The notes below the pieces were generated by a model that saw only the letters and a program-made list of their open reading frames with translations, did not search any database and was not told the DNA's origin. A stretch of 64,000 nucleotides of DNA, taken from contig CAKTMO010000007.1 in the NCBI GenBank assembly GCA_934573935.1, forward strand, positions 1-64,000. Direction: 5' to 3'. A program made the position numbers and the translations under genes. Source of the stretch: an uncultured Oscillospiraceae bacterium (GTDB lineage: Bacteria; Bacillota; Clostridia; Oscillospirales; Oscillospiraceae). Position 1 is the first letter of the stretch. Every line of letters begins with the position of its first letter. Shown one piece after another: positions 8,353 to 35,171 of the stretch.

Positions 8353-8381
8353 TTGACAGATAACTTTTTGTAGTGTATTTT
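8353..8381 (+). promoter_or_regulatory. Promoter of the peptide-transport island
   Basis: TTGACA (8353-8358) and TATTTT (8376-8381) at 17-bp spacing. The leader of about 90 nt contains a small AAAATGC/GCATTTT hairpin before the first permease gene. Confidence 0.7.
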
Positions 8382-8478
8382 TATTTATAACAGATTTAAA
8401 AATGCACAGGGCATTTTAGACAGTACAGAAAAACAGCGATAGCAGCATACGAAAAGATTTGCCAGGGAGGATACGGAA

Positions 8479-9489
8479 ATGCTCAAATACATAGTGAAGC
8501 GTTTACTGCTGGGGTGTTTGGTGTTATTTGGTGTAATTACCATCACTTTCATCTTATGCCGCGTTGTTCCTTCCGACCCGGTTTCCAAGGTGGTCGGAAC
8601 ACGCGCCACACCGGAACAGCGAGAGCAAGCTCGCATTGAAATGGGACTGGATAAGCCGCTGACGACGCAGTATGTTCTATATTTGAGTGACCTGCTGCAC
8701 GGTAACCTGGGTACGTCGCTGCGTACAAAACAGCCTGTTACCAATGAGTTGAGAGAGTATATTCCCTCTACGGTTGAACTTGTGCTGATGGCCATGATCA
8801 TTGCTGTTGCGATTGGTATTCCGCTGGGCATCAATTCTGCCAAGAAAAAGGATCAGCTGCTGGATCATTTTTGCCGGTTCTTTTCCGTGGGCGCTGTTTC
8901 GCTGCCGACCTTTTGGACGGCGCTGTTTCTGCAGTTGATATTTTACCGACTGCTGAATTGGCTTCCGCTGGGCGGACAGATCGACGTCATGCTGATGCTG
9001 ACACAGGATGTGCCGCGGAGGACAGGCTTTATGCTGCTGGATTGTATTCTTGCCGGTAACGGCGTCATGCTGTGGGATGTTTTTAAGCATATGATCCTTC
9101 CCGCCGTAACCATCTCGCTGTACCCCATGGGGCTTGTGTCCAAGATGACAAGAGCCTCGCTGGTGGAAATTTTGGGAGAAGAGTATATCAAATCAGCGCG
9201 CTCCTATGGATTGAAAGAAAGTCTGGTTCTTTGGAAATATGCATTAAAGAATACGTTAGGAACTACCGTGACGGTTGTTGCGACCTGTATCGGCTACACG
9301 CTGATAAACACCTTCTTGGTGGAAGCTATTTTTAGTTGGCCGGGCTTGGGAACTTATGTCTCCAATTCTGTTATGAATATGGATACACCGGCCATTATGG
9401 GCGCCACTTTGTTTTCCGCCGTGGTATACGTGATCTTGAACCTGATTGCGGATCTGATTATTGCCACGGATCCGCGGGTTCGGGCTTGA
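8479..9489 (+). CDS. Oligopeptide/dipeptide-type ABC transporter permease (OppB/DppB family)
   Basis: A 336-residue permease with the OppB N-terminal helix (MLKYIVKRLLLGCLVLFGV), the early motif DPVSKVVGTRATPEQ and six membrane segments. The coupling loop EEYIKSARSYGLKE precedes a C-terminal segment ending in ATDPRVRA. It would form one half of the substrate channel with the next gene. It is the first gene of the island and uses more A/T-ending codons than the pst genes upstream. The exact substrate (peptide, nickel, other) cannot be read from the sequence. Confidence 0.9.
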   Translation: MLKYIVKRLLLGCLVLFGVITITFILCRVVPSDPVSKVVGTRATPEQREQARIEMGLDKPLTTQYVLYLSDLLHGNLGTSLRTKQPVTNELREYIPSTVELVLMAMIIAVAIGIPLGINSAKKKDQLLDHFCRFFSVGAVSLPTFWTALFLQLIFYRLLNWLPLGGQIDVMLMLTQDVPRRTGFMLLDCILAGNGVMLWDVFKHMILPAVTISLYPMGLVSKMTRASLVEILGEEYIKSARSYGLKESLVLWKYALKNTLGTTVTVVATCIGYTLINTFLVEAIFSWPGLGTYVSNSVMNMDTPAIMGATLFSAVVYVILNLIADLIIATDPRVRA

Positions 9490-9537
9490 TCGGCCTCCCG
9501 GATGCATGAATGAATCACTCAACAGCAGGAGGACTTT

Positions 9538-10428
9538 ATGAGAAACAGCAGATTATGGAAAACAATGAAACCAAAATTGAAAGAAGCCTGGAACTCTTAC
9601 CGGCTTCTTAAGCGTAACACCTTGACACGGATCGCGCTGTACCTTGTTTTTGCGCTTGTCCTGATTGCCATTTTCGCACCGGTCGTCCTGCCGTCTGTGC
9701 AGGAGATCAATGAGCAGGCCGATGCCGCATTTACGCTGCAGGCACCGAGCTCACAGCATTTGTTTGGCACAGATGAATTGGGCAGGGATATCTTCCTTCG
9801 TACCCTGATCGGCACCCGGGTCTCATTGGGAACAGCCGTGATCTGTGTTGCCATTTCTGTAGTGGTCGGGGTGATATTAGGTGCAACAGCCGGCTATTTT
9901 GGCGGAGTGGTAGATGACATTATCATGCGCATCACAGATATGTTCCTCAGTTTCCCGTCACTGCTGCTGGCCATGGCTGTAGCGGCCATTCTTGGGCCCA
10001 GTCTGCAAAATGCCATTATTGCGATCGTGATTTCCTGGTGGCCATCTTATACACGAATTGTACGGGGACAGGCAGTTTCTGTAAAAGAGCGGCAATTCGT
10101 AAAGGCCGCCAAGGCGATCGGAACACCCAACTTCAAAATTATCACAAGCCATGTGATCCCAAACTGTCTGGCACCTGTTATTGTTCAAGTTTCCATGGAT
10201 TTGGGAAACGTCATTATGACGCTGGCCTCGTTGAGCTTTTTGGGCCTTGGGGCTCAGGCGCCGACACCGGAATGGGGACTCATGGTCAGTACAAGCCGCA
10301 ATTACTTTTTGAACGCATGGTGGTACAGCATTTTTCCCGGCCTGGCTATCTTTGTCACCGTCCTGGCATTTAATCTGGTAGGAGATGGTCTGCGTGAGAT
10401 CCTTGACCCAAAGACCAAGAAGAAGTAA
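9538..10428 (+). CDS. Oligopeptide/dipeptide-type ABC transporter permease (OppC/DppC family)
   Basis: A 296-residue permease. An N-terminal helix leads into the OppC signature HLFGTDELGRDIFLRTLIG, then five more membrane segments and the coupling loop ERQFVKAAKAIGTPNFKII. The C-terminus is DGLREILDPKTKKK. The start at 9538 has AGGAGG 6 bp upstream. It follows the OppB-like gene by 48 bp and is 12 bp from the ATPase gene, so it is the partner half-channel of the same operon. Confidence 0.91.
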   Translation: MRNSRLWKTMKPKLKEAWNSYRLLKRNTLTRIALYLVFALVLIAIFAPVVLPSVQEINEQADAAFTLQAPSSQHLFGTDELGRDIFLRTLIGTRVSLGTAVICVAISVVVGVILGATAGYFGGVVDDIIMRITDMFLSFPSLLLAMAVAAILGPSLQNAIIAIVISWWPSYTRIVRGQAVSVKERQFVKAAKAIGTPNFKIITSHVIPNCLAPVIVQVSMDLGNVIMTLASLSFLGLGAQAPTPEWGLMVSTSRNYFLNAWWYSIFPGLAIFVTVLAFNLVGDGLREILDPKTKKK

Positions 10429-10440
10429 GGAGGAGCCGCA

Positions 10441-11406
10441 ATGGGAACGCCATATTTGCAAATCGAGAATTTGACGATCAACTACAATACGTCGGGGCAA
10501 AAAAAGCATGTTCTGTCGATTGAGAATTTGTGCATTGAAAAAGGACAAGCACTTGGCCTCATTGGTGAAAGCGGCACAGGAAAAACGGTTCTGGCGCAAG
10601 CGATTCTCCAGCTTTTGGAAGTTCCGCCCGGAGAATATGCCAGCGGAAGAATCCTCCTTGATGGCGAGGATGTTCTGCAGAAGACCGACAAGGAGATGGC
10701 AACGGAAATCCGTGGAAAAAAGGTCGCCATGATCTTTCAGGATCCCATGTCAACGCTGAATCCGGTCTATTCCATAGGACAGCAGATGATCAACGTCATC
10801 ATGCAGAATCAGGGACTTAGTAAGCACGAGGCAAGGAATAAGGCGCTGGAAATGTTAGACTTGGTTAAGCTGCCTGATGTGCAAAGCGTGATGGATAAGT
10901 ACCCGCACGAGCTTAGCGGCGGACAGCGGCAGCGTGTCATTATCGCTCTGGCATTAAGCTGCGGTTCCGAGTTTATCATTGCCGATGAGCCGACCCGCAA
11001 TCTGGACGTTACCATTCAGGCGGGTATTTTGAAACTGCTGAAAGAACTGCAGGCAAGACTGAACGTCACGCTGCTGTTCATTGCGAATAACCCGGGCTTG
11101 ATTTACGCCACCTGCGACCATGTGGCGATTTTACAAAACGGCTATGTTGTCGAGCAGGGTACGACACACGAGGTGCTGAAGGAAGGCAAACATCCCTATA
11201 CGGACGTTTTGCTCAATGCGATCCCCAAAGATAAGTCCTTTCGCCCGCGAACGATTGATATTTTGGAGGGAGAAAATCCTTCGCCCTGTCATTACTATCC
11301 GTGGTGCGCTCTGCGCTGCGAGGCCTGTATGCAGGAGCCGCGTATGATCCATGTGGGCGGAGAGCATTATGTGCGCTGTAATCTGGCAAAGGAGGCTGGA
11401 CGCTGA
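10441..11406 (+). CDS. ABC transporter ATPase, OppD-like, with atypical switch residue
   Basis: A 321-residue ATPase. Walker A is GESGTGKT (42-49), the signature is LSGGQ (158-162), and Walker B with catalytic Glu is IIADEPT. The C-terminal Cys-containing oligopeptide extension includes CHYYPWCALRCEAC. Two positions deviate: the D-loop region reads RNLDVT, and the usual switch histidine (ITHDLG in relatives) is replaced by Asn216 in FIANNPG. It overlaps the next ATPase by 1 bp. With OppF-like it forms a two-ATPase engine in which this subunit supplies the intact signature motif. Confidence 0.88.
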   Translation: MGTPYLQIENLTINYNTSGQKKHVLSIENLCIEKGQALGLIGESGTGKTVLAQAILQLLEVPPGEYASGRILLDGEDVLQKTDKEMATEIRGKKVAMIFQDPMSTLNPVYSIGQQMINVIMQNQGLSKHEARNKALEMLDLVKLPDVQSVMDKYPHELSGGQRQRVIIALALSCGSEFIIADEPTRNLDVTIQAGILKLLKELQARLNVTLLFIANNPGLIYATCDHVAILQNGYVVEQGTTHEVLKEGKHPYTDVLLNAIPKDKSFRPRTIDILEGENPSPCHYYPWCALRCEACMQEPRMIHVGGEHYVRCNLAKEAGR

Positions 11407-12395
11407 TGGACGGAAATATTCTTGAGCTCAAGCACTTAAAGAAGTACTTTCCCGTAAAGAGAAAGGGCTTTTGGGGTGAGCAGCGCTTTGTCAAAGCGGT
11501 GGACGATGTGTCGTTCAATATTCGCCGCGGCGAGGTGGTTGGCATCGTAGGGGAATCCGGCTGCGGAAAGTCTACGCTGGTCAATACGGTCTTGAAGCTG
11601 ACAAATCCCACAGATGGACAGGTTCTCTTTGATGGAAAGGATCTGTACGCACTGAACAAAAGGGAACTGCAGGCGGAGCGCAAGAACATTCAGATCGTGT
11701 TTCAGGATCCTTACTGGTCGTTGAACCCACGTATGCTGGTAAAGGACATTGTGGGAGAGCCTCTGGCGGTGCAGACCAAAATGAACACGCAAGAGATTTT
11801 GGCGCAGGTGCAGAAAACGCTGCAAATGGTGGGCCTGCCGCCGGAGGGCGCCTTCTTGTATCCCCATGAATTCAGTAATGGCGAGCGCCAACGCATTGCC
11901 ATCGCCAGAGCGTTGGTTCTGCAGCCGAAGCTGGTCGTTCTGGATGAACCCACTTCCTCCATCGACGTGGTTTCGCAGGTACAGATCTTAGATCTGTTAG
12001 GCAGCTTGAAGGAGCAGCTGCAGTTGACTTATATCCTGATCTCCCATGATTTGAGTGTTGTTCACTACATGGCAGATAAGATCGCGGTTATGTATTTGGG
12101 TCGGCTGGTGGAATACGGCGATTCCGATGAGGTATTCCATCACCCGCAGCATCCGTACACCAGGGCACTGTTTGCGGCGATCCCCAGCATGGATACGGAT
12201 AATTTGGATGATATCAGTACACTGGATGATAATTTGCCCAGCGCCATCAACGTGCCGGATGGCTGCTGCTTCCATACCAGATGTCCCTATGCCACCGAAC
12301 AGTGTGCACAGCAGCTTCCCAAGCTGCGAAGATGCGCAAACGGCGTGATCGCTGCCTGCCACTTGCTGGCAGCGCATGATTCTCAGGAGGTATGA
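11406..12395 (+). CDS. ABC transporter ATPase, OppF-like, with degenerate signature
   Basis: A 329-residue ATPase. Walker A is GESGCGKS, Walker B is VVLDEPTSSIDV, the switch histidine is His214 in LISHDLS, and there is a C-terminal Cys-rich oligopeptide domain (FHTRCPYATEQC). The signature motif is FSNGERQR (156 onward) instead of LSGGQRQR. It is therefore complementary to the OppD-like partner, which keeps LSGGQ but has lost the switch histidine. The stop codon overlaps the ribosome-binding site of the next gene. Confidence 0.88.
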   Translation: MDGNILELKHLKKYFPVKRKGFWGEQRFVKAVDDVSFNIRRGEVVGIVGESGCGKSTLVNTVLKLTNPTDGQVLFDGKDLYALNKRELQAERKNIQIVFQDPYWSLNPRMLVKDIVGEPLAVQTKMNTQEILAQVQKTLQMVGLPPEGAFLYPHEFSNGERQRIAIARALVLQPKLVVLDEPTSSIDVVSQVQILDLLGSLKEQLQLTYILISHDLSVVHYMADKIAVMYLGRLVEYGDSDEVFHHPQHPYTRALFAAIPSMDTDNLDDISTLDDNLPSAINVPDGCCFHTRCPYATEQCAQQLPKLRRCANGVIAACHLLAAHDSQEV

Positions 12396-12399
12396 TACC

Positions 12400-13476
12400 A
12401 TGACACATGAAGAAAGACTGACCTATTTTGCTGACGCGATGGTCAATAGAACCTTTCAGCTGAAACCGGGCGAAACGTTGGTTATTACATCGGACTACGG
12501 TTCCCGCCACGATTTGAACGAGGCTATTTCCAAGGCTGCCTATCAGGCGGGTGCCAAATGTATGATCGTTATTACCGCCCCTGCCCCCAGCCATGGGAAA
12601 ATCGCAGATACCGTTATTGCCTATGAGCCTTTTACAGCGCTGATGAAGGAGGCGGACTGCTGGTTGGATACCGGCACGATGGGGTGGCTGTATTCCGATG
12701 CTTTTGAGACTGTGCTGGCAACAAATCCGGATATCCGCTATCTGCTGATCTCCAATCTCGATCTTGACCTGCTGTACAAGACCTTTGTGTATAACTATTG
12801 TGATGCACTGGTGGAGCTGTGCGCACAGATCAAGCGGATGGTAGACGGCGCTTCCCGTATTCGCGTGGGCTGTGCACTTGGTACGGATCTGGAGTTTGAG
12901 ATCGAGCACCGGCATGTGATCACTGTGGATATCGGAAACGCCTCTGTTCCCGGATTTTTCACGTTGCCGGCCCTGTTTAACATTGTTCCGCGGTTTGGTT
13001 CCTGTAACGGGAAATTAGTAATGAGCGCGGTATACTGTGACCCGTGGGGGCTGCTGGACAAGCCACTGACAATTTTGATCAAGGACGGAAAGATCATAGG
13101 AACAGAATGTGAGAACCAGGCTGACGCCGACTCTGTGATGACATGGTTGGCACAGTGGAACGAGGAGAATATTTACAAGGTTGCGCATACCAATCTGGGG
13201 CTGCTGGCCGGTGTGAAGGGACTGTGTGGTGAGGGGATCCTGGACGAACGTTCCTGGGGCACGCTGAACTGGGGATTCGGCCACGTAACACCCTCGGAAG
13301 CGCCGCCCAACGGCAATATTTCGAAATCCCACTTCGACGGCATGGTATTGAATGGTTCCATTTGGATCGATGAGGTTCCCATTATGGAGAATGGCCGCTT
13401 CGTTCATAGCGCATTGGCTCCGCTGGCAGATGCGGTGATTCGCCATTATGAGGATTCTTATAAAACGCAACAATGA
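12400..13476 (+). CDS. M29/NicX-like metalloprotein, copy 1
   Basis: A 358-residue cytosolic protein related to M29 aminopeptidases and to the NicX group of iron-dependent ring-opening dioxygenases. Candidate metal ligands are His263 (KVAHTNLG), His311 and Asp313 (SHFDGMV). From memory, NicX uses a His, His-x-Asp triad with similar spacing. The classical M29 second-metal ligands are not evident. ATG 12400 has CAGGAGGT 8 bp upstream. It starts 4 bp after the ATPase stop and is followed by a paralog. A dioxygenase role would be odd in an anaerobe, so hydrolase or lyase action on the imported substrate is equally possible. Confidence 0.75.
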   Translation: MTHEERLTYFADAMVNRTFQLKPGETLVITSDYGSRHDLNEAISKAAYQAGAKCMIVITAPAPSHGKIADTVIAYEPFTALMKEADCWLDTGTMGWLYSDAFETVLATNPDIRYLLISNLDLDLLYKTFVYNYCDALVELCAQIKRMVDGASRIRVGCALGTDLEFEIEHRHVITVDIGNASVPGFFTLPALFNIVPRFGSCNGKLVMSAVYCDPWGLLDKPLTILIKDGKIIGTECENQADADSVMTWLAQWNEENIYKVAHTNLGLLAGVKGLCGEGILDERSWGTLNWGFGHVTPSEAPPNGNISKSHFDGMVLNGSIWIDEVPIMENGRFVHSALAPLADAVIRHYEDSYKTQQ

Positions 13477-13495
13477 AAAGACAGGAGGTACGATC

Positions 13496-14551
13496 ATGAC
13501 CAGAGAGCAGAAAATTGAACAAATCGCAAAATTTATCGTGCACACAACCTTCAAGCTGAAGGAAGGTGATACGCTGGTTATCACCTCGGATTACGGTTCC
13601 CATCACGACATTAACGAAGCGGTTTCCCGCGAGACCTACGCAGCAGGTGCAAAGTGCCTGATCATTAAAACCGCCCCCGCCCCCAGCCACGGGAAGATCG
13701 CCGACACCGTAGTTGCCTATAAGCCCTTTACGGCCATGATGAAGGAAGCCAACTATTGGCTGGACACCGGCACCATGGGTTGGCTGTATTCTGACGCATT
13801 TGAAGATTCCTTTGTCAATAACCCCAATCTGCATTATATGCTCATCTCCATTATGGACGTGGACGAGCTGATGGATATGCTGCTGGGCTGTTATTCTCCC
13901 GAAATGCAGGCTATGACCGACTATATGGCGGAAATGATCCTCAAGGCAAAGGGATTGCGTGTGACCAATCATGACGGCACGGATTTCACCTTTGAGATCG
14001 ACACCAATAACCGCAACAACGCCCAGATCGGTCTGGCGGATAAGCCCGGCTTCTATACGCCGCCCGCGATGTACAATATGATCCCCAAATATGGCACGCT
14101 GCAGGGAAAGGCGGTCGTGCGCTGCATTTATGCCGATCCCTGGGGAATGGCTGCGCCCACTACCGTCAATTTCAAGGACGGCAAGATCGACACCATTACC
14201 AGTGAAGATCCCACGGTAGCGAAGAAGTTCACAGCGTGGCTGGAAAGCAAAAACGAAGAGAACATCTACAAGATTTCCCACATTAACTTTGGCCTGCTGC
14301 CGAAGCTGCATGAGTTCTCCGATCATGGCATCAAAAATGAACGTATGTGGGGCGGTATTAACCTGGGCTTCGGTCATACCAGTCCTGTGGACATGCGTCC
14401 CAATGGTCAGACCTCCTGCGATCATCTGGATATCATTGCAGACAAGTGCGATGTCTGGGTGGATGACACAAAGGTGATGGAGAACGGGGAATTCGTTGGC
14501 CCCTTCAAGAGCTATGCCGATGCCGTCCTGAAGGTAAATGGTATGCTGTAA
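13496..14551 (+). CDS. M29/NicX-like metalloprotein, copy 2
   Basis: A 351-residue paralog of the preceding gene. The two are closely similar along their length (shared DTLVITSDYGS, TAPAPSHGKIADTV and DTGTMGWLYSDAFE). Ligand candidates are conserved at His262 (KISHINFG), His310 and Asp312 (DHLDII). ATG 13496 has an AGGAGG site; a longer reading from 13448 overlaps the previous gene and lacks one. The tandem pair suggests a heteromeric enzyme or two steps on related substrates. Function is not known. Confidence 0.75.
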   Translation: MTREQKIEQIAKFIVHTTFKLKEGDTLVITSDYGSHHDINEAVSRETYAAGAKCLIIKTAPAPSHGKIADTVVAYKPFTAMMKEANYWLDTGTMGWLYSDAFEDSFVNNPNLHYMLISIMDVDELMDMLLGCYSPEMQAMTDYMAEMILKAKGLRVTNHDGTDFTFEIDTNNRNNAQIGLADKPGFYTPPAMYNMIPKYGTLQGKAVVRCIYADPWGMAAPTTVNFKDGKIDTITSEDPTVAKKFTAWLESKNEENIYKISHINFGLLPKLHEFSDHGIKNERMWGGINLGFGHTSPVDMRPNGQTSCDHLDIIADKCDVWVDDTKVMENGEFVGPFKSYADAVLKVNGML

Positions 14552-14610
14552 CGCAGGCAAACTTTCCGATTATCCTGCAACAAATAATGAACAAATGAGA
14601 GGATTTTGTT

Positions 14611-16185
14611 ATGAAAAAGAGAGTTGTTTCTTTGCTCCTGGCCGTGGTCATGATGTTTGCTCTGGCCGGCTGCGGCAACACCGGCAACACCCCCAGTAAC
14701 AACAGCGCCTCGGATACACACACATTCTACTATGCAACATATGTTGATCCCATTCTCCAGTGGGATCCCAGCGGCTCTGTGTCGAATGAAGTTATGGTCT
14801 TTAATGAGGTTTACGAGACCCTTCTTCGTATCGACCCTGCCACTGATGAATTTACCCCTTGTCTGGCTACTTCCTATGAAGCGAACGAAGACGGCACGGT
14901 CTGGACGTTTAAGCTGCGCGAGGGCGTTACGTTTACGGATGGCAGCGCTTTTAACGCCGATGTTGTAAAATTCTGCCTGGAACGGACGATCTCCCTTAAC
15001 GGCGCCAACGCTTATCTTTGGAACAGCCTGGACTATGTTGAGGTGATCGACGACTACACGGTTGCGCTGCACTTGAAGTATGCCGCTCCCGCCGACATCA
15101 TCTGCGCCGGCTCCTATGGCTCGTTCATGTATTCCAAAGAAGCCGTAGAGAATGATCCTGATTTCTTCAATAAGGGTCAGGTTTGCGGCAGTGGCCCCTA
15201 TACGTTGGCACAATACCAGGCGGGTGACTATGTGGTTCTGTCCCGTAACGAAAACTATTGGGGCGGCTGGAGTGACAATCAGTATGACTCTGTGATCTTC
15301 AAGTATGCGGCGGAATCCTCCTCCCGTCGGCAGATGATTGAGTCCAACGAGGTCAGTGCCGTGAATATGCTGCCTGCGGAGGATGTGGCCGCGCTGTCCA
15401 ACTCCGCCAATTGCAAGGTGGTGGAGGCCCCGACGCTGAAAAATATGATCGCAAACTATAACACGGCCTCCGGTCCCTGCAGTGATGTCCGTGTACGTCA
15501 GGCACTTGCCTACGCGCTGCCCTACGAGCAGGTTGCAAACGTGGCCTGCGGCGGGCATGCCACGATTGGCTGCGGCTATATTCCTACAGGCCTGTTTGGA
15601 CATACGGATGATCTGAATACCAATGTGTACGATCTGGAAAAGGCACGCGAGCTGCTGACGGAGGCGGGTTATGCCGACGGTATGAATCTGGTGCTGACCT
15701 ATATGAGTGGAGATGAAATGCAGCGCAAGACTGCTGAGCTTTGGGCGACCGAGTTGGCCAAGCTGAATGTAACGCTGTCCATCAATGCCATGACATGGGA
15801 TGGTATGTGGGATAAAGCGCGCAGCACGACGCTGGAGGATCGTCAGGATATCCTGGTTGAGTACTGGATGATCGACATTGCATCTCCCTCCGGTTGGATG
15901 GCTGCTTATACCACGGAAGCCGAACCCATCATGAACCTGAGTTATTACAGTGATCCTGAGGTGGACGCCCTCATCGCGGAAGCGGCCTCCCTGTGCGCAA
16001 CTGACCGCGATGCGGCGACTGAGGTGTACTACACCATTCAGGAGAAGCTGGCGGCAGCCTGCCCCGCAACCTCTGTTGTGGATGTCAAGGATGTTTGGGT
16101 TTTGTCTGGTACAGTTGACTCCATTGATCTGAACGCCGCTTATACCATGGTGGCGCGTGTTTACGATGCCAGATGGGCGCAGTGA
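14611..16185 (+). CDS. Family 5 extracellular solute-binding lipoprotein (OppA/DppA-like)
   Basis: A 524-residue lipoprotein with lipobox LAGC (Cys21) and a Thr/Asn/Ser linker. The two-lobe family 5 fold is indicated by NEVYETLLRIDPATDEFTPC, the KLREGVTFTDGS motif and SGPYTLAQY. It would bind the substrate outside the membrane and hand it to the OppB/OppC-like permeases. It lies downstream of the two M29-like genes rather than first in the operon, followed by a hairpin at 16225-16265 that may set its mRNA level apart from later genes. Confidence 0.92.
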   Translation: MKKRVVSLLLAVVMMFALAGCGNTGNTPSNNSASDTHTFYYATYVDPILQWDPSGSVSNEVMVFNEVYETLLRIDPATDEFTPCLATSYEANEDGTVWTFKLREGVTFTDGSAFNADVVKFCLERTISLNGANAYLWNSLDYVEVIDDYTVALHLKYAAPADIICAGSYGSFMYSKEAVENDPDFFNKGQVCGSGPYTLAQYQAGDYVVLSRNENYWGGWSDNQYDSVIFKYAAESSSRRQMIESNEVSAVNMLPAEDVAALSNSANCKVVEAPTLKNMIANYNTASGPCSDVRVRQALAYALPYEQVANVACGGHATIGCGYIPTGLFGHTDDLNTNVYDLEKARELLTEAGYADGMNLVLTYMSGDEMQRKTAELWATELAKLNVTLSINAMTWDGMWDKARSTTLEDRQDILVEYWMIDIASPSGWMAAYTTEAEPIMNLSYYSDPEVDALIAEAASLCATDRDAATEVYYTIQEKLAAACPATSVVDVKDVWVLSGTVDSIDLNAAYTMVARVYDARWAQ

Positions 16186-16224
16186 CCATAAGCAAGCGGT
16201 AAACGTTATAGACTCACAATACGT

Positions 16225-16265
16225 GGGTATCCCCGCATCACCTGCCGGGTGCTGCGGGGATACCC
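16225..16265 (+). terminator. Long hairpin after the binding-protein gene, no T-run
   Basis: Perfect 13-bp arms (16225-16237 and 16253-16265) with an inner CACC/GGGTG stem. No U-tract follows, so it may be a leaky terminator or an mRNA-stabilising hairpin. It lies between the binding protein and the enzyme genes. Confidence 0.6.
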
Positions 16266-16292
16266 GGCAATCCACCAAAAGGAAGTGATTCC

Positions 16293-16655
16293 GTGCATCT
16301 TAACGACGCAAAATATCACACGCATGCCTTGCGGATCAGTGCAAAGAAGACCGCCCAGGATAATCCGTATTATTATTCGAATGAGCGCCTTGCCAATTGC
16401 CTGCATGTGATGGAACGACTTCGCACAGACAGCTGGTTAAAGCCCAAAGCGCTGGAGCTGCGATTGACGTCCGTTTTAGGGTTGGAGGGTGGTTATCGCG
16501 CTGCCTGTGGGGAAGATGCCTGCCGGATTGACATAAGCGTGTATGTATCGCCCCCCGCCTCCGGCGCTGAGCTGGAGCAGAAGCTTTGCCCGTTGGGTAA
16601 GGCGCATGGTGTATGCATCAATGTTCTTGACAGGGGGAGCTCACATGTGGACTGA
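16293..16655 (+). CDS. 120-residue protein resembling an isolated M20 peptidase lid domain
   Basis: GTG 16293 has AAAAGGAAG at good spacing. The protein has the pattern of the dimerisation (lid) domain of M20 peptidases: HALRISAKKTAQDNPY, then YYSNERLANCLHVMERL, LTSVLGLEGGYRAACGE, and RIDISVYVSPPASGAELEQKL. The catalytic domain is absent, so it has no metal ligands. It overlaps the following complete M20 gene by 11 bp. It may be a relic of a second M20 gene or a small partner subunit. The assignment is by eye and tentative. Confidence 0.5.
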   Translation: MHLNDAKYHTHALRISAKKTAQDNPYYYSNERLANCLHVMERLRTDSWLKPKALELRLTSVLGLEGGYRAACGEDACRIDISVYVSPPASGAELEQKLCPLGKAHGVCINVLDRGSSHVD

Positions 16656-17904
16656 ACGAATTCAGCAGGAATATCTGGAGATCTTCCGTAGCCTTTTGCG
16701 GTTTGATACCACAAATCCTCCCGGGTATGAAAAGGATATTGCCCAATACATCCACCGTAAACTGACGGACGCGGGGATCGAAAGTCACATTGTTGGAAAG
16801 ACGCCAAACCGCGCCAATGTGTTGGCGAGGATCTCCGGAAGTGATCCCTCTGCCAAGCCGCTTATGCTGATTTCGCATATTGATGTTGTAGAAGCGGATG
16901 ACTGGAGTGTTCCCGCGTTTTCGGCCTATGAAAAGGACGGCATCCTCTATGGCCGGGGTACAATTGATACCAAACAGTTGACTGCCGGACAGCTGATGGC
17001 CATGCTGCTGATGGCGCGGTCAGGCCGTCGGCCGCACAGGGATGTCATATTGATCGCGGCAGCCGATGAGGAAAACGGCAGCAATTATGGAATGGCCTAT
17101 CTCACCGAAAATTATCCCGAATGGTTTCCAGAGGCTTATGTATGGAGTGAGGGCGGCGGCTTTATCGTACATAATGGAGAGAAGCAGTACCGTTTATGTG
17201 CGGGAAGTGAAAAATCAACGCTTTGTGTTCGCATCTGCATTGACCCAGGCGCCGAAGGAGCGGGATTGGAAGGGCAAACGCTGTATTATGTGGCCCGCGT
17301 ATTGGAAAAGCTGACCTCTTATACGCCGAGCACTACTTTGACCAGTGCCACAGAACGCTTTTGCAAGATACTGCCGCCGGAAGAGATCAGGGATCCGACG
17401 ATTCGCAATTTATGGGAATACAGCACAAAATGCTCCATGCAGCTGAATGAATTTCACCTCTGTGCGGAAACCATCGGCTGTGGAAAGCCTGTGGAACTGT
17501 TCGTCAGCTTCAAGCTGCTGCCGACTACCCCACGGCGCGAGATCGAAGACCTGTTTGCCGCGCTGCTATGCGGCGAACCGGCGACATGGGAAGTTACCGA
17601 CTTTCAAGAGGGGTATGAGAGCAGTTTTGACAATGAATTTATTGATGTTCTCGATTCCGTATCAAAACGGCTGGATCCGGAAACACAGCTGCTGCCTATG
17701 ATGATCCTGGGTAGTACGGATGGCCGGTTTATCGGCGGAAATGTCTATGGCTATACGCCGCTGCTTCGAGATATGCCGTTTTCGACTGTGCTTCAACTGG
17801 TGCACGGGAAAGACGAACACATAACGTTGGATTCCGCCGTTTACAACGGGCGCGTTATTTGTGAAGCGGCGGCAGAATTTGCGTATAACAAAACAGGAGG
17901 GTAG
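16645..17904 (+). CDS. M20-family metallopeptidase/amidohydrolase
   Basis: A 419-residue zinc peptidase of the ArgE/DapE/dipeptidase family. The first metal site is SHIDVVEADDW, followed by the GRGTIDTKQ aspartate, the general-base pair is in ADEENGSN, and a lid domain spans about residues 190-300. ATG 16645 lies inside the end of the lid-like gene and has GGGGGAG upstream. It ends 3 bp before the PLP-enzyme gene, whose ribosome-binding site overlaps this stop. It probably cleaves a dipeptide or N-acyl amino acid brought in by the island transporter. Confidence 0.86.
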   Translation: MWTERIQQEYLEIFRSLLRFDTTNPPGYEKDIAQYIHRKLTDAGIESHIVGKTPNRANVLARISGSDPSAKPLMLISHIDVVEADDWSVPAFSAYEKDGILYGRGTIDTKQLTAGQLMAMLLMARSGRRPHRDVILIAAADEENGSNYGMAYLTENYPEWFPEAYVWSEGGGFIVHNGEKQYRLCAGSEKSTLCVRICIDPGAEGAGLEGQTLYYVARVLEKLTSYTPSTTLTSATERFCKILPPEEIRDPTIRNLWEYSTKCSMQLNEFHLCAETIGCGKPVELFVSFKLLPTTPRREIEDLFAALLCGEPATWEVTDFQEGYESSFDNEFIDVLDSVSKRLDPETQLLPMMILGSTDGRFIGGNVYGYTPLLRDMPFSTVLQLVHGKDEHITLDSAVYNGRVICEAAAEFAYNKTGG

Positions 17905-17907
17905 AGT

Positions 17908-19089
17908 ATGGGATATTTTGATAACGCTGCCATCAATTTTGATGTGCTGAAAAAACGCGCGTTTAACTATCGGTGGGCCGAAGTTCCTGACGGCGTCATT
18001 CCCTTGACCGCCGCTGATCCGGATTTTCCCGCACATCCCGCCGTTCGTGAAGCGATTATCAACTACGCCAAGGAGGGCTATTTTTCCTATACGCCGCACC
18101 GCGGTATGCCCGACTTCATGGCAAGTATTTCCAAGGCGCTGAAGCTTCGGAAAAATGAGGATGTTCCGCCGGAACTGATCCTGCCGATCGACAGCGCCGC
18201 GCGAGGGATGTATGTGATCGCACAGACCGTTTTGCAGCCCGACGACGAAATGATCGTTTTCGATCCGGTGGACTTTTTGTTTCGCCAGTCGTGCTTGTCG
18301 GCCGGTGCTACACCCGTGCTGTTCCCAGCGCGCCTGGACGGGGATCACATTGATCTGAGTGAATTGGAGCGCTATATTACACCGAAGACCAAGATGATTG
18401 GCCTTTGTAATCCGCATAATCCGCTGGGCGCCCTGTATACCCGTGAGGATCTGGAACACATCCTTTCATTGGCCGAAAAATATGATCTGTATATCATGAA
18501 CGATGAGATTTGGTCGGATATTGTGTATCCGCCGAAGAAGTTCATCAGTATTCTGGAACTGGGCACCCAGCGCAACCGTAAAACACTGTCTGTTTTCGGC
18601 TGGTCGAAGAGCTTCTGCGTGGCGGGTCTGCGTATCGGCTGCGTATATGGGCAAGACAAAGAACTGTTTGATAAGGTAATCGACAAATCAGCCGTTATGA
18701 CTACGGCCGGCGGCATTTCATCCCTATCTCAAATTGCCGGAAAAACCTGTGTTGATCAGTGCTATGGCTGGCTTGATGAGTTCCTTCTGCATCTGAAAGG
18801 CAATCGGGATTATGCGGTGGAGCGGATCAACGCCATGCCGGGTCTGCGGGCGCGGAAGGCAGACGCGACCTATTTGCTGTTTTTTGATATCACACAGACG
18901 GGAAAAGACAGCCAGACATTTGTTGACGAGCTGCTTCAGCAGCAGAAGCTGGCTTTGACACCTGGCAGCGCCAAGTTCTTTGGGCCGGGTGCGGAAGGAC
19001 GGGTTCGTTTGTGTTATGCCACCAGCCGCGAGGTATTAAAAGAAGGGCTGGATCGTCTGGAGGCATATACAAGATCCATCAGCAAATAA
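17908..19089 (+). CDS. PLP-dependent aminotransferase-fold enzyme, MalY/PatB (C-S lyase) type
   Basis: A 393-residue fold-type I PLP enzyme. The internal aldimine lysine is Lys234 in FGWSKSFCVAGLRIG. NPHNPLG and NDEIWSDI hold the cofactor-binding Asn and Asp. MalY/PatB relatives are mostly cystathionine or cysteine-conjugate beta-lyases and less often aminotransferases. The VPDGVIPLTAADPDFP start is MalY-like. It lies between an M20 peptidase and RidA. A beta-lyase releases 2-aminoacrylate, the substrate of RidA, which favours lyase activity. Confidence 0.82.
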   Translation: MGYFDNAAINFDVLKKRAFNYRWAEVPDGVIPLTAADPDFPAHPAVREAIINYAKEGYFSYTPHRGMPDFMASISKALKLRKNEDVPPELILPIDSAARGMYVIAQTVLQPDDEMIVFDPVDFLFRQSCLSAGATPVLFPARLDGDHIDLSELERYITPKTKMIGLCNPHNPLGALYTREDLEHILSLAEKYDLYIMNDEIWSDIVYPPKKFISILELGTQRNRKTLSVFGWSKSFCVAGLRIGCVYGQDKELFDKVIDKSAVMTTAGGISSLSQIAGKTCVDQCYGWLDEFLLHLKGNRDYAVERINAMPGLRARKADATYLLFFDITQTGKDSQTFVDELLQQQKLALTPGSAKFFGPGAEGRVRLCYATSREVLKEGLDRLEAYTRSISK

Positions 19090-19134
19090 TCTGCTACACT
19101 CTACCATAAAAGATTAGAACAGGAGTTGCGTATA

Positions 19135-19515
19135 ATGAAAAAACTGATTTCAACAACACAGGCTCCCGCCGCGATCGGCCCCTACTCCCAGGGGGTAGAG
19201 ACCCAGGGAACGATGATATTTGTTTCCGGACAGCTTCCGATTGATCCCAATACAGGCGCTTTCGCAGGGGATGATATTGTCACCCAGTGCCACCAGTCCA
19301 TTCGCAATGTCAAAGCCATTCTCGAAACGGCCGGCACCGATCTGGAACACGTTGCCAAGACCACGGTGTTTATCAAAAACATGAACGACTTTTCCGCCTT
19401 GAATGAGGTATACGCGCAGTATTTTTCCAATGGTCTTCCTGCACGCTCCGCTGTTGAAGTCGCCTGCCTTCCCAAGGGTGCGCTGGTGGAGATCGAGGCT
19501 ATCGCTATCAAGTAA
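19135..19515 (+). CDS. ridA: RidA (YjgF/YER057c) enamine/imine deaminase
   Basis: A 126-residue protein. IGPYSQGVETQGTMIFVSGQ and LPARSAVEVACLPKGALVEIEA are classic RidA motifs, and Arg104 corresponds to the catalytic arginine. RidA hydrolyses 2-aminoacrylate and similar enamines made by PLP enzymes. ATG 19135 with AGGAG is preferred over a TTG at 19126 that overlaps the site. It is the last enzyme of the island, 45 bp after the PLP gene. Confidence 0.94.
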   Translation: MKKLISTTQAPAAIGPYSQGVETQGTMIFVSGQLPIDPNTGAFAGDDIVTQCHQSIRNVKAILETAGTDLEHVAKTTVFIKNMNDFSALNEVYAQYFSNGLPARSAVEVACLPKGALVEIEAIAIK

Positions 19516-19589
19516 GTACCTGTGATTTGCTGAAAGACGCTACTTCACACGTAATCAGGATAATTTGCAGCACAGGGGTAGAACTCTTC

Positions 19590-19618
19590 TTGCTTTTATA
19601 ATACTTTCGTTATATAAT
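19590..19618 (+). promoter_or_regulatory. Promoter of the PAS-HTH regulator
   Basis: TTGCTT (19590-19595), a 17-bp gap and a perfect TATAAT (19613-19618), with a leader of about 65 nt. A second A/T-rich TTATAATA word upstream could be an operator. Confidence 0.65.
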
Positions 19619-19688
19619 AACCATTTAGAGAGCTTTACGACAAAGCAATATGATGGTTTCATTTCAATATAAAGCGGAGGAATAAAGA

Positions 19689-20384
19689 ATGGCGATGGCA
19701 GAATGGACGACGAAATTAACCGATGTTGACCGGGTGATTTTATCATCCTATAAAAGCTTTTCCGAAGGTCTTTCCGACTATCTGGGCGAAGGATACGAGA
19801 TCGCGCTGCATAGTCTGGAAAATTTGGATCGCTCTGTGATAAAAATTATTAATGGTTATCATACCGGACGAAGTGAAGGTGCGCCCATTACGGATTTGGC
19901 TTTGACAATGCTGAGCCGAATCAAAAGCAATCAAATCGAGCCCTATATTTCTTACAACACGACCAATAGCAAGGGAGAGCCCATGCGCTCCACCACGATC
20001 GCCGTTATGGGAGAACATGGCCGGATTATTGGCCTGCTCTGTATCAATTTCTATCTGAACACACCGCTGACCAGCGTCATCAAGAATTTGACTACGCCGG
20101 ACAGCAGCGAAACGGAGTCTTTGTCAGAGCGCTTTGCGGATAATATCGGCGACATGCTGCATAATACGGTGCAGGATGTGCATACACTGGTTATGTCTGA
20201 TCCGTCGATCCCCTGTGGCCGGAAAAAACGTGCCATTGTGAAGGAACTCCACAGCCGCGGTGTTTTTAATCTGAAGGATTCGGTCGTCCGCACCGCAGAA
20301 CTGCTGCAGGTCTCACGGAACACGATATACATGTATATCCGCGAAATTGACGAGAAGAATGCGGAGTCCAAGGAACGTGGTTAA
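19689..20384 (+). CDS. YheO/DauR-like PAS-HTH transcriptional regulator
   Basis: A 231-residue protein with an N-terminal PAS-like domain (residues ~15-130: FSEGLSDYLGEGYEIALHSLENL, GRIIGLLCINF). The C-terminal helix-turn-helix is IVKELHSRGVFNLKDSVVR followed by LQVSRNTIYMYIREI. Known relatives such as DauR control D-amino acid breakdown. ATG 19689 has CGGAGG at 8 bp. It has its own promoter and terminator and closes the island, so it is the likely regulator of the transporter and enzyme genes; ligand unknown. Confidence 0.85.
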   Translation: MAMAEWTTKLTDVDRVILSSYKSFSEGLSDYLGEGYEIALHSLENLDRSVIKIINGYHTGRSEGAPITDLALTMLSRIKSNQIEPYISYNTTNSKGEPMRSTTIAVMGEHGRIIGLLCINFYLNTPLTSVIKNLTTPDSSETESLSERFADNIGDMLHNTVQDVHTLVMSDPSIPCGRKKRAIVKELHSRGVFNLKDSVVRTAELLQVSRNTIYMYIREIDEKNAESKERG

Positions 20385-20462
20385 TGCTCTTGTCAGGTTT
20401 CAAGAATACAAGATTTCTCTGCGCTATTTGTTCTGTATTCTTGATCGCACAATACCCTACTG

Positions 20463-20509
20463 CACAGGGAACCGGAACGCCTTTTGAAAAGGTGTTCCGG
20501 TTCCCTGTG
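20463..20509 (+). terminator. Intrinsic terminator of the regulator gene
   Basis: A stem of more than 20 bp (20463-20485 with 20487-20509, one G-U pair, T/A bases forming the loop) is followed by TTTTCTTC. Confidence 0.88.
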
Positions 20510-21515: not shown

Positions 21516-22613
21516 TTATGCTTCGCAGAATTCTACGTGTATATCGTTTCTGCCGGACAGATACAGCAGATGACTGTAGCACAGCTTGAAGGAAACCGTG
21601 TCGCCCACCTGCAGAGGGCGAGGATGATCGGTCACGTCTAAAATACAGTGATCCGAGCTGCCGCCCACCACGGTGATGCCCGCGTCAAGGGGGATCAGGC
21701 TCTCCAGTTCGCCTACGTCGGCCCGCCCCAGCGCCAGCAGGGCGCGGCGGCGGATGCCGTGATCCTCATACACCGGCTTGCGGCCAAAGGCGTCGATGCA
21801 GAACTGGCCCTGGGGATAGGTGGGCTTGTCCCGTACCTCAATGACCTCCGCCGTCAGGGTGAAGGTATCGGTGCGCAGATAGTCCATATCGGAGATGTGC
21901 CACAGGTTCTGCAGGTCGTTGCTCAGCAGGATGTTTTCCCCGATGCGCAGGTGGTTGATGCCCTTCGGCATGGTGTGCCAGTGTACCAGCGTGTAGGAGC
22001 TGGTGGCGCCGCCGGAGATGATCTCCAGCTTGCGGCCGATGGCATCCTCCACCCGATGGGCCAGCGCCAGCAGCTGCTCCATCTTCTCCGGCGTGGGCTG
22101 AATGGAGCCGTAGCAGCTCAGGTTCACGCCGACGCCGGAAAGGTGCACATGGGGCAGGTCGCGCTCCACATGGATGCAGGCGGACACAAATTCCTCCTTA
22201 TCCCAGAAGCCCTCCCGCAGATCGCCCAGATCCGCCATCACGATCACGCTGTGGGTCCTGTCCTGCCGCTGGCATTCCTTTTCCAGCGCGTCCAGCGTGG
22301 CGCGCTCGCTTTGCAGGGACATGTCGCACAGCGCCACGGTATCCGCCAGCTCCGTCAGCCCGGGGATGCGGATCAGGAGAAAGGGGCCCTCTACACCGTC
22401 GGCACGGCAGCGAGCCACCTGCTCCAGACGGCTGGTGCCGATCTGGGCCGCGCCGCAGCCGCGCATGACGCGGGCCACCGGAGGCATGCCCTCGCAGCCC
22501 TTGATGACGCCGCAGACCTGGATATCCTGTGCGCGGCAGCGGTCGATCACCTGCTGGGCGTTATGCCGAAGCCTGTCCAGATGGACGTTGAGACATGGAA
22601 ATTGCCGGTTCAT
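21516..22613 (-). CDS. PLP-dependent alanine/ornithine-racemase-family enzyme
   Basis: A 365-residue enzyme with the N-terminal TIM-barrel fold of alanine racemase. The PLP lysine is in VCGVIKGCEG (about residue 39). GVGVNLSCYG, ISGGATSSYT and INHLRIGENILLS line the cofactor site. Length and the C-terminal HCILDVTDHPRPLQVGDTVSF segment fit ornithine-racemase-like proteins better than housekeeping Alr. GAGGTG lies before ATG 22613, and a TG-extended TATACT box lies upstream. It may racemise ornithine or another basic amino acid; substrate not determined. Confidence 0.8.
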   Translation of the reverse strand: MNRQFPCLNVHLDRLRHNAQQVIDRCRAQDIQVCGVIKGCEGMPPVARVMRGCGAAQIGTSRLEQVARCRADGVEGPFLLIRIPGLTELADTVALCDMSLQSERATLDALEKECQRQDRTHSVIVMADLGDLREGFWDKEEFVSACIHVERDLPHVHLSGVGVNLSCYGSIQPTPEKMEQLLALAHRVEDAIGRKLEIISGGATSSYTLVHWHTMPKGINHLRIGENILLSNDLQNLWHISDMDYLRTDTFTLTAEVIEVRDKPTYPQGQFCIDAFGRKPVYEDHGIRRRALLALGRADVGELESLIPLDAGITVVGGSSDHCILDVTDHPRPLQVGDTVSFKLCYSHLLYLSGRNDIHVEFCEA

Positions 22614-24166: not shown

Positions 24167-25390
24167 TCAAAACGCCCAGTTGCCGTCGCGGAAGATGGGA
24201 ACAGTCTTGCCGTCGGCGCAGACGGCGTCGATGTTCATGTCCTGGGAACCGATCATGAAATCCTCGTGGATCATGGAGTCGTTGACGCCCAGCGCGCGGC
24301 ACTCCGCCAAAGTCTTCTCGTGGAAGTTCTCGATGGTGTCGGCAAAGCCCATGCCCAGCGCCAGGTGGCAGGCGGCGTTCTCGTCAAACAGCGTGTTATA
24401 GAAGAGGATGCCGGACTTGCGGATGGGGGAATCATAGGGCACCAGAGCGCACTCGCCCAGATAGGCGCTGCCCTCATCCATAGTGATGAGCTTGGTCAGC
24501 AGCTCGTTGTTCACCTCGGCGTGCCACTCCACAGCCTTGCCCTCGTGGAACCTGATCCAGAACTTGTCGATGAGCTGGCCCTGATAGCTGAGGGGCTTGG
24601 TGGCGTAGACGATGCCCTCCGCCTGGCCCCGCTTGGGGGAGATAAAGCACTCCTCGCTGGGGATGTTGGGGTTGAAGACGATGCCCTGCAGGCTCTTCTC
24701 GCTGCCGCCGCAGAAGCGGCCTTCGGGGATCATGCCCACGGTGAAGTCAGTGCCGGTGGCGCTGGTGTAGTGGAGCTTTTCGATATGCAGGCTGTTGAGG
24801 TAGGCACAGCGGTCGTGAAGATCCTTGTTGTGAGCCTCCCACGCGGCCACAGGGTCGTCATCCACACGGGAGGTGGTCAGAATATGCTGCCACAGCTGCT
24901 CCATAGCGGCGGCGGGCCGCAGTTCCGGAAACAGCTTCTTGGCCCACGCCTTGCCGGGGACGGCGGCGATACACCACTGATACTTGTTCTCGATGGCGTC
25001 GCGGTAGGGCTTGGCGATGGGGTAGCGCTTCTGCTGGGCCTTGGCCATCTTCGTCTGGTCGATGCCCTTCAGGCCGTCGGGATCCTCGCTGATGAGATAG
25101 ATGCGGCAGGGGATGGTATCCACATAGTGCTGCCAGCGGGCCTCCTCGTAGTTCTCCACTTTGCCCAGGGTGGTCAGGGTGCGGTAGCGGTAATGGATCT
25201 TCTGCAGGGGCTGGTAGTCCCAGTCCACCACCACCTTTTTGGCCTTGCATTTATAGCACTCCTCCACCAGCATCTTGACGAATTCCGGCTGGTCCAGGTC
25301 GGCCTCGATAAAGACCTCCTGACCAGGCTGGATGTTGACGCCGCAGCGGGCGATCAGGCGGGCATAGCTGCGCAATACGGTTTTTTTCAT
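24167..25390 (-). CDS. M29-family aminopeptidase (AmpS/PepS type)
   Basis: A 407-residue cytosolic aminopeptidase of full family length. Co-catalytic metal-site segments are NIPSEECFISP, GECALVPYDSPI, FYNTLFDENAACHLALG and HEDFMIGSQDM. It trims N-terminal residues from peptides. Unlike the two M29-like genes at 12.4-14.5 kb, this copy keeps the whole set of ligands. ATG 25390 has AAAGGAG. It forms a single-gene unit between a shared terminator and the spore-type genes. Confidence 0.92.
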   Translation of the reverse strand: MKKTVLRSYARLIARCGVNIQPGQEVFIEADLDQPEFVKMLVEECYKCKAKKVVVDWDYQPLQKIHYRYRTLTTLGKVENYEEARWQHYVDTIPCRIYLISEDPDGLKGIDQTKMAKAQQKRYPIAKPYRDAIENKYQWCIAAVPGKAWAKKLFPELRPAAAMEQLWQHILTTSRVDDDPVAAWEAHNKDLHDRCAYLNSLHIEKLHYTSATGTDFTVGMIPEGRFCGGSEKSLQGIVFNPNIPSEECFISPKRGQAEGIVYATKPLSYQGQLIDKFWIRFHEGKAVEWHAEVNNELLTKLITMDEGSAYLGECALVPYDSPIRKSGILFYNTLFDENAACHLALGMGFADTIENFHEKTLAECRALGVNDSMIHEDFMIGSQDMNIDAVCADGKTVPIFRDGNWAF

Positions 25391-33827: not shown

Positions 33828-35171
33828 TTAATAGGTTCTGTGATTCAAATCGCCCCATAGCTTCTTGGCGGCTTCCAGGATATGGGCGTTTTCGGCCTCT
33901 TCGTCGATGCCCACCAGCACGCGGTCCTGCATCAGCAGCTTGCCGGCGGCGATGGTGGTCTGGCACTGGCGGCCGGTCATGCCGAAGAGCATGTGACCGT
34001 CGATATTCTCGTCGGAGAAGGGGGTGAAGGGCTTGTAATCCATCACGATGATGTCCGCCGCCGCACCGGCCTTCAGCACGCCCAGCTGCTGGGGGAAGTA
34101 CTTGGCGCCGATCTTGGCATTGTTCTTGAACAGCATGTCCGTGACCTCACACCAGCCCACGTTGGGCAGGCAGTTCTGGCTGCGCTGGGAGCACAGGGCC
34201 ACCTTGATGGACTCCAGCATGTCGTTGGTATAGGCGTCGGTGCCCATGCCCAGCAGGATGCCCCGCTTGTACAGCTGGATCACAGGGCAGATGCCGATGG
34301 CGTTGCCCATGTTGGATTCGGGGTTATTCACCACCATGGTGTTGGTCTCCTTGATGATCTCCATCTCGGCGGTGTTCACGTGGATGCAGTGGCCCAGGAT
34401 GGTCTTTTCGCCCAGAATGCCGTGGTCCTGCAGGCGCTGCACCGGACGGCGGCCGTAGTTCTGCAGGCTGTCGTACACGTCGTTCATACCCTCGGAAACG
34501 TGGATATGATAGCCGGTGCGGCCGTTGTTGGCCTCCACCATCCGGTCAAAGGTCTTGTCGGAGATGGTGAACAGGGCATGGCCGCCGAACATGGCTGCCA
34601 GCATGGGATCGTTCTCCTTCTGGCAATAGGTGATGAAGTCGGCGTTCTCCTTGATGGCCTGCAGGCACTTCTCCTCGCCGTCGCGGTCGGACACCTCATA
34701 GCACAGGCAGGAGCGCAGGCCCAGACGGCGGCTCTCCTCGCTGATGGTGAACAGCGTGCCGGGGATCTCGCCATAGCTGGCGTGGTGGTCGAAGATGGTG
34801 GTGACGCCCTGCTTGATGCTGTCCATGTACAGGGCGGTGGCGCTGGCGCGGGTGCCGTCCATCATCAGGTGCCGGTCGATGGCCCACCAGGTGCCGTCCA
34901 GCACCTCATAGAAGTTGGTGGGGTTGTTGCCCACGATGCTCAGGCCCCGGGCCAGCGCGGAGTAGATGTGGGTGTGGGCGTTGATGAGCGCGGGCATGAT
35001 CACGCCGCCCTTGGCGTCGATGATCTCCGCCTGGGGGTACTTGGCCCGCAGCGCGGCCTCTTCGCCCACTTCCACGATGTTGGCCCCCTCATAAGCCACC
35101 GCACCGTGCTCGTAATAGCCCTTCCCCTCGCTGTCGCGGGTGATGAGTCTGCCATTGGTCACTAAAGTCAT
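33828..35171 (-). CDS. ssnA: SsnA-type aminohydrolase
   Basis: A 447-residue amidohydrolase-superfamily enzyme. Metal-site motifs are NAHTHIYSALARG, the HVSEG histidine, GHCIHV and the GTDAYT aspartate. The YEVLDGTWWAIDRHL segment is typical of SsnA. ATG 35171 is chosen because AGGAGGG sits 8 bp upstream; the longer frame from 35201 lacks such a site. It would deaminate or ring-open a purine-like substrate. It shares a transcript with ygfK behind a structured leader with a terminator. Confidence 0.92.
   Translation of the reverse strand: MTLVTNGRLITRDSEGKGYYEHGAVAYEGANIVEVGEEAALRAKYPQAEIIDAKGGVIMPALINAHTHIYSALARGLSIVGNNPTNFYEVLDGTWWAIDRHLMMDGTRASATALYMDSIKQGVTTIFDHHASYGEIPGTLFTISEESRRLGLRSCLCYEVSDRDGEEKCLQAIKENADFITYCQKENDPMLAAMFGGHALFTISDKTFDRMVEANNGRTGYHIHVSEGMNDVYDSLQNYGRRPVQRLQDHGILGEKTILGHCIHVNTAEMEIIKETNTMVVNNPESNMGNAIGICPVIQLYKRGILLGMGTDAYTNDMLESIKVALCSQRSQNCLPNVGWCEVTDMLFKNNAKIGAKYFPQQLGVLKAGAAADIIVMDYKPFTPFSDENIDGHMLFGMTGRQCQTTIAAGKLLMQDRVLVGIDEEAENAHILEAAKKLWGDLNHRTY

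Follow-up and report, generated by a model that had tools for sequence, protein, structure and literature searches.

Twin genes for predicted NicX-fold enzymes in an Opp-type importer cluster of an Oscillospiraceae genome: a candidate system for the use of small cyclic amides

Related systems and the locus

Hydantoin utilisation operons comprise a hydantoinase, a racemase and a carbamoylase, and M29 peptidases have a two-metal site of five ligands. NicX is a 2,5-dihydroxypyridine 5,6-dioxygenase (PDB 7cn3, 7cup; PMC7910607). Cyclic dipeptides are reported, in work of 2013, to withstand the peptidases that were tried, their degradation being little known at that time (PMC3852281), and the surveyed gene clusters of cyclodipeptide oxidases, most of them without a cyclodipeptide synthase (CDPS), are described as containing hydantoin racemases, DUF917 proteins, dipeptide/oligopeptide ABC transporters, OPT transporters and peptidases (PMC11055893). 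The locus considered here occupies positions 8353-20509 of the window, that is, the whole stretch of 64,000 nucleotides that was analysed (contig CAKTMO010000007.1, positions 1 to 64,000, from the uncultured Oscillospiraceae bacterium GCA_934573935.1), and encodes an Opp-type ABC importer, two NicX-like proteins named here NX1 and NX2, an M20-family enzyme, a pyridoxal phosphate (PLP) enzyme, RidA and a YheO-type regulator.

NX genes are recurrently linked with importers and M20 genes, and the window combines two Opp-associated modules found elsewhere, one of importer, NX and M20 and the other of importer, peptidase, RidA, PLP enzyme and YheO; that two modules are joined follows from each of them occurring apart from the other. 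Our preferred reading, held tentatively and at somewhat less than an even chance, is that the cluster imports a small cyclic amide, that the NX twins open its ring, that the M20 enzyme splits the product, that the PLP enzyme and RidA process it further and that the YheO-type protein acts as the sensor.

Gene content and layout of the cluster

A sequence-only reading of this DNA had described a tightly spaced co-directional gene set with a regulator, which is borne out by the open reading frames (ORFs) and by Pfam: ten co-directional genes and one regulator gene, eleven in total, lie on the + strand at 8479-20384, with spacing from overlap to about 60 nt except for two wider gaps, one of 459 nt between the genes of the solute-binding protein (SBP) and the M20 enzyme and one of 173 nt between those of RidA and the regulator. 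The cluster edges coincide with a promoter-like site and a terminator-like hairpin, both being consensus matches only, in a region with 26 promoter-like sites versus 14.9 in shuffles (standard deviation 3.8) and 12 terminator-like sites versus 13.3. The features are as follows:

8353-8381, +, promoter-like site (TTGACA, 17 nt, TATTTT), consensus match only
8479-9489, +, OppB-type permease (BPD_transp_1, 111.9 bits)
9538-10428, +, OppC-type permease (BPD_transp_1, 116.2 bits, and OppC_N; Opp2C 302.5, cutoff 300)
10441-11406, +, OppD-type ABC ATPase (ABC_tran, oligo_HPY)
11406-12395, +, OppF-type ABC ATPase (ABC_tran, oligo_HPY)
12400-13476, +, NX1, NicX-like enzyme, first twin (start matching most relatives; mechanical ORF from 12376)
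13496-14551, +, NX2, predicted NicX-fold enzyme, second twin (start according to the identical protein P0001, 351 amino acids (aa); mechanical ORF from 13448)
14611-16185, +, lipoprotein SBP (SBP_bac_5, 279.2 bits; lipobox LAGC in the sequence)
16225-16265, +, hairpin in the SBP-M20 gap (18-nt arms, 94% complementary; absent from the terminator-like list)
16293-16655, +, 120-aa ORF overlapping the M20 start (no family, no clear homologue)
16645-17904, +, M20-family amidohydrolase or peptidase (Peptidase_M20, 79.8 bits)
17908-19089, +, fold-type I PLP enzyme, aminotransferase/PatB-like (Aminotran_1_2, 149 bits; TIGR04350 under cutoff)
19126-19515, +, RidA, Rid-family deaminase (TIGR00004, 170.9, cutoff 106.25)
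19689-20384, +, YheO-type PAS-HTH regulator (PAS_6 111.6, gathering score 27; HTH_22 54.9, gathering score 29.6)
20463-20509, +, terminator-like hairpin (20 pairs followed by a T run), consensus match

The two BPD_transp_1 permeases, the two ATPases with ABC_tran and oligo_HPY and the SBP_bac_5 protein together make up an Opp/Dpp-type ABC importer, and membership of the Rid family and of the YheO type is given by the scores listed. The family-less 120-aa ORF lies 3' of the hairpin with the 18-nt arms; that it is a fragment of the M20 gene is doubtful, its match extending over 31 residues only (E 0.033).

Occurrence and neighbourhoods of NX genes

A word-limited search of 5.8 billion proteins, in which 795 candidates were scored, gave 15 close NX relatives, and pattern scanning across 84,980 species genomes yielded one NX locus, L001, from a Choladousia metagenome-assembled genome (MAG), with the order OppC-OppD-OppF-NX1-NX2-binding protein as in the window, followed by a helix-turn-helix gene and the contig end. 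Class searches covered the class of this Lachnospiraceae MAG, where 82 of 391 genomes had a match at E 1e-3 or lower, though many of these matches are weak and of the M29 type. At 1e-15 they were found in 31 of 397 genomes in the family of the L001 genome and in 6/6 in that of G112, and at 1e-40 in four of 400 in the family of G036, whose leucyl-tRNA synthetase is among the closest.

Neighbourhoods were annotated for 37 NX loci and, as controls, for 24 loci around weak matches of the M29 type from the class search. An Opp-type permease pair was present in 18 of the NX loci, an NCS1 transporter in 11 and an OPT transporter in seven, with any of the three in 33; enzymes included M20 (21 loci), CN-hydrolase (7), Asp/Glu/hydantoin racemase (6) and S-Me-THD (8), a PucR regulator occurred in 17, and 15 contained at least two NX genes. 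None of these transporters or enzymes, nor PucR or multiple NX genes, was found in any of the 24 controls. The same-strand neighbour was a partner or another NX gene for 47 of 55 NX genes (36 loci) and a partner for 0/24 control genes. The association of importer, NX-type enzyme and M20 proposed earlier recurs across NX loci; conservation of the gene set as a whole holds in part, as importer, NX and M20 recur together, whereas the exact eleven-gene combination was seen only in the window and in no other genome reached. Searches of the open-licence PMC literature listed no paper that presents this gene combination in its title or in the opening of its abstract. A Leifsonia diketopiperazine pathway, with a racemase-type epimerase and an ATP-dependent hydrolase, did not turn up there either and carries no weight in the present argument.

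The 37 loci come from 31 genomes and are not independent, because several of these are close kin (e.g. L033-L036). Except for Opp, SBP, PLP, RidA and YheO, the partner references were drawn from NX loci wholly or, for M20, partly, so that detection there is favoured, and the Pfam names of partners were taken from representatives. Lone generic ABC-ATPase matches (50-111 bits), present in both groups, were not scored as importers. L100 is among the 37 though ORF calling missed its NX gene, and it stands outside the 36-locus gene count. The weaker NX loci L046, L047 and L052 (58.5, 53.8 and 44.1 bits) were assigned to neither set; of these, L047 and L052 carry partners, and with the three added the control figure becomes 2/27. 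Controls L048-L051 score about 51-54 bits, near L047, so the group boundary is partly a choice. In three of 20 control loci (L105, L117, L123) the gene at the expected place has no NX-like label, and four matches above about 80 bits were left out (G695, G526, G446:C15, G691:C5:144683).

Hydantoins and other ureides are a close rival to a diketopiperazine as the substrate. The NX pair would then be hydrolases of five- or six-membered ureides (hydantoin/dihydropyrimidine type) replacing the classical hydantoinase, with the M20 enzyme removing an N-carbamoyl or N-acyl group, an explanation to which we assign a low but appreciable probability. It is favoured by the NCS1, PucR, racemase, S-Me-THD and CN-hydrolase counts above, as hydantoin operons likewise have a racemase, an NCS1 permease, an M20 enzyme or CN-hydrolase and PucR. 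These operons differ in that no gene of the 37 NX loci is labelled as a relative of the dihydropyrimidinase encoded elsewhere in the window, which suits the ureide explanation in so far as NX may replace the ring-opener. Among the cluster genes themselves there is no cyclic amidohydrolase, and ATP-dependent hydantoinase partners were not among ten neighbour proteins checked, no systematic search having been made. Against ureides stand the peptide-type ABC importers, which are the commonest transporter, together with the OPT transporters, and the partner M20 enzymes, four of six tested being above a dipeptidase-model cutoff (L074, L075 and L076 for TIGR01887, L088 for TIGR01893); of the remaining two, that of L077 is slightly under cutoff and that of L082 is a general M20 hydrolase.

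Family, fold and metal site of the NX twins

NX1 and NX2 score 21.0 and 21.7, over about 55 N-terminal residues only, versus the gathering score of 27 for the M29 family (PF02073). A genuine full-length M29 aminopeptidase is encoded outside the cluster at 24167-25390 on the - strand (534.4 bits), and the ten control proteins in which M29 identity was tested are all true M29 members (179.8-242.4 bits). A NicX fold is predicted across the whole chain, for NX2 with confidence. The NicX metal ligands His265, His318 and Asp320 are retained in the alignment as H278 in 57/57 rows and as H326 and D328 in 56/56 readable rows. The fourth ligand, Ser302, is not clearly matched (His or Gly in the window): it falls opposite G309, one place before position 310, which is His in the window and Ser in 21 of 57 rows, and the alignment is possibly off by one. 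M29 identity was rejected because the Pfam score is under the cutoff and the fold order and metal triad are of the NicX type, so only the second half of the earlier label "M29/NicX-like" stands. PF26233 is precomputed for NX homologues and is not among the Pfam results for the window proteins.

The same evidence bears on the explanation that the NX pair are exopeptidases for linear modified or D-amino-acid peptides, the cluster then serving plain peptide use and differing only in an uncommon peptidase; we give it the same low but appreciable probability as ureide hydrolysis. NX differs from the M29 aminopeptidases PepS, AmpS and AmpT in its Pfam score, its metal triad and its neighbours, the partners of NX being absent from all controls. 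NX also adjoins transporters of the NCS1 family, which is known for small-ring substrates.

That the twins are true O2-dependent ring-cleaving dioxygenases like NicX is very improbable, even with the predicted fold and metal triad common to both. Those genomes that were reached fall in the class of the Lachnospiraceae MAG, whose members are generally anaerobes, and the substrate-holding residues E177 and H189 of NicX are not kept: the former position is Q193 in NX2 and D in NX1 (E in 8/57), and the latter lands in an alignment gap for NX proteins. NX is further set apart from NicX by its clostridial hosts and its importer-plus-M20 setting; a nicotinate-pathway set was not noticed beside NX, no search having been aimed at one.

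In a tree of 50 members, the window NX1 and NX2 separate into two supported clades and each groups with the corresponding L001 protein, so the duplication predates the split of these lineages. Database proteins on equal-sized contigs are found across the two clades (P0002/P0011, 5317; P0004/P0010, 12799), which suggests that they are NX pairs on shared contigs. Further clusters have multiple NX genes that belong elsewhere in the tree, adjoining in L076, L078, L079 and L102 and with at least one gene between them in L077, L082 and L083. Such repeated extra copies suggest either a heteromer or enzymes differing in ring or stereo preference.

M20 enzyme and the RidA-PLP-YheO tail

The window M20 enzyme is under each cutoff of the 25 NCBIfam models listed and fails the PepV/Sapep model PRK07318 (40.6 versus 435). 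For the PLP enzyme, PatB/MalY C-S lyase identity is not supported, with a TIGR04350 score of 197.1 against the curated cutoff of 340, and both of the solved chains that it matches at 1e-40 are of aspartate aminotransferases; the C-S-lyase call of the sequence-only reading thus lacks support, and for its idea of cysteine conjugates as substrates no supporting evidence was found.

None of the 37 NX loci has RidA, this PLP enzyme or the YheO regulator; in L037, L042 and L087 a more distant gene of aminotransferase fold lies some kilobases off, not adjoining NX. A PLP-enzyme match at E 1e-60 occurs in 0/17 NX genomes tested, a set without a positive control. Among 200 genomes in the G001 family, two have the enzyme at 60-64% identity; one of these, G435, is also the only one with it among 189 genomes of the phylum. 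In G435, at L124:2-11402, an Opp operon parallels that of the window, minus NX, in the order M20, M24, M20, creatinase-N fragment, OppB, OppC, M24, OppD, OppF, RidA, PLP enzyme, YheO. It shares the importer, M20 and the whole tail with the window and has M24 peptidases where the window has NX, and by it the grouping of Opp, peptidase, RidA, PLP enzyme and regulator proposed earlier is independently supported, at this one locus. The other of the two genomes, at L125, has the PLP enzyme without RidA, a second genome of the L124 genus also has it, and metagenome contigs carry close copies (86-99%).

Completion of a reductive uric-acid pathway by the M20 enzyme, the PLP enzyme and RidA, with YgfK and SsnA 10 kb downstream, is the least probable explanation of all: YgfK, SsnA and a dihydropyrimidinase are above cutoff in the window and the pathway is described with an M20 enzyme, YgeY, and a terminal PLP lyase, YgeX (PMC12507026), but those window genes lie on the opposite strand at a GC content of 0.61-0.63 versus 0.51 in the cluster, YgeX belongs to PF00291 (PMC12507026) and the cluster enzyme to PF00155, and the tail accompanies peptidases in L124.

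Proposed pathway and substrate

We infer the substrate, the hydrolytic chemistry, the number of metals, the order of steps and the regulation, as well as the transfer event proposed below. The Opp-type importer would take up a cyclic amide of small size, for which a cyclic dipeptide (2,5-diketopiperazine) is the likeliest candidate and whose ring NX1 and NX2, with their predicted NicX fold and probably a single metal, would open as O2-independent hydrolases. The M20 enzyme would split the linear product, the PLP enzyme would probably deaminate or eliminate the released amino acid, and RidA would probably hydrolyse the resulting enamine or imine, the end products likely being ammonia and simple acids; the YheO-type regulator likely senses the substrate. 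In the earlier outline, import, ring opening, M20 cleavage and deamination remain plausible, in part supported by recurrence, and the genes neighbouring NX suit a cyclic amide or peptide; its M29 label, its C-S lyase step and its proposal of cysteine conjugates are not supported.

A diketopiperazine was chosen as the likeliest substrate because the NX partners resemble those of cyclodipeptide oxidase clusters and because cyclic dipeptides withstood the peptidases tried in the 2013 work. The oxidase clusters without CDPS have Opp/OPT transporters, DUF917/S-Me-THD, hydantoin racemases and peptidases, as found around NX, and the main text of that survey makes no mention of NicX, M29 or aminopeptidase (PMC11055893). 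In L033-L036 the likeness extends to a nitroreductase (AlbA-like in L033) with a small partner. The window cluster differs in having no nitroreductase, DUF917 or racemase, and neither an AlbA-like nitroreductase nor an AlbB-like small subunit is among its genes.

Several observations weigh against this reading. All three kinds of transporter are missing from four of 37 loci (L037, L041, L044, L045); in L041 and L045 their place beside or near NX is taken by a glutamate symporter and a component of a tricarboxylate transporter. Some relatives have a racemase and a CN-hydrolase that the window cluster does not, its M20 enzyme is outside the dipeptidase model (TIGR01887, 49.8 versus 207.95), and the NicX substrate-holding residues are not kept. 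The best match of the L033 small protein is AlbB, weakly (E 0.041), its Pfam family being DUF6092, and a 101-aa ORF of L102 similar to it has no structural match. NCS1 transporters and PucR in many relatives fit hydantoins, ureides and nucleobase-like rings equally well.

It is possible, and on the doubtful side, that NX is a novel class of anaerobic ring-opening hydrolases, in which the NicX fold serves a cyclic dipeptidase with one metal, frequently present as twins of differing ring or stereo preference, in a diketopiperazine route of Clostridia. If true, Clostridia would have a defined, transport-linked protein set for cyclic amide use with a conserved metal site and extra copies, the NicX fold would work outside oxygen chemistry, records named "aminopeptidase" would be corrected, and diketopiperazines that ordinary peptidases cannot cut would become food for Clostridia.

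A recurrent set in L033-L036 consists of a nitroreductase, a small protein (91-92 aa, beside the small nitroreductase; DUF6092 in L033), PucR, a binding protein, OppBCDF, a single NX and S-Me-THD. The L033 nitroreductase best matches 9exv chain A (E 3.1e-23) and also albonoursin synthase 8uc3 (1.4e-19). At L102:10039-10880 (-) the 101-aa ORF lies beside a nitroreductase, within an Opp-NX-M20-racemase cluster, in a layout like that of the L033 pair.

Base composition and origin

GC content is 51% in the 8353-20509 stretch (0.48-0.54 in its genes), 0.59-0.66 in the upstream Pst/Pho genes, whose names were read off the sequence, and 0.60-0.61 in downstream stretches. The lower value in the cluster than in its flanks suggests transfer from a lower-GC donor, and it is likely that the cluster is one operon acquired horizontally from another species. 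The L001 locus has a GC content of 48%, and the window leucyl-tRNA synthetase is at most 74% identical (residues 2-578), or 68% at full length, to its counterparts in the class of the L001 MAG. Plasmid carriage was considered and rejected for NX2, with distant matches only (20-26% identity) in eight of 72,556 records, and for the PLP enzyme, with one record at 39% identity.

Other genes in the window

An ornithine racemase Orr-like protein at 21516-22613 (-) is under cutoff (345.6 versus 480). YgfK is encoded at 30364-33315 (-; TIGR03315, 1275 versus 835) and SsnA at 33828-35201 (-; PRK07203, 603 versus 444), both described as reductive uric-acid pathway genes (PMC12507026), and the dihydropyrimidinase/D-hydantoinase lies at 61670-63040 (-; TIGR02033, 519.7 versus 393).

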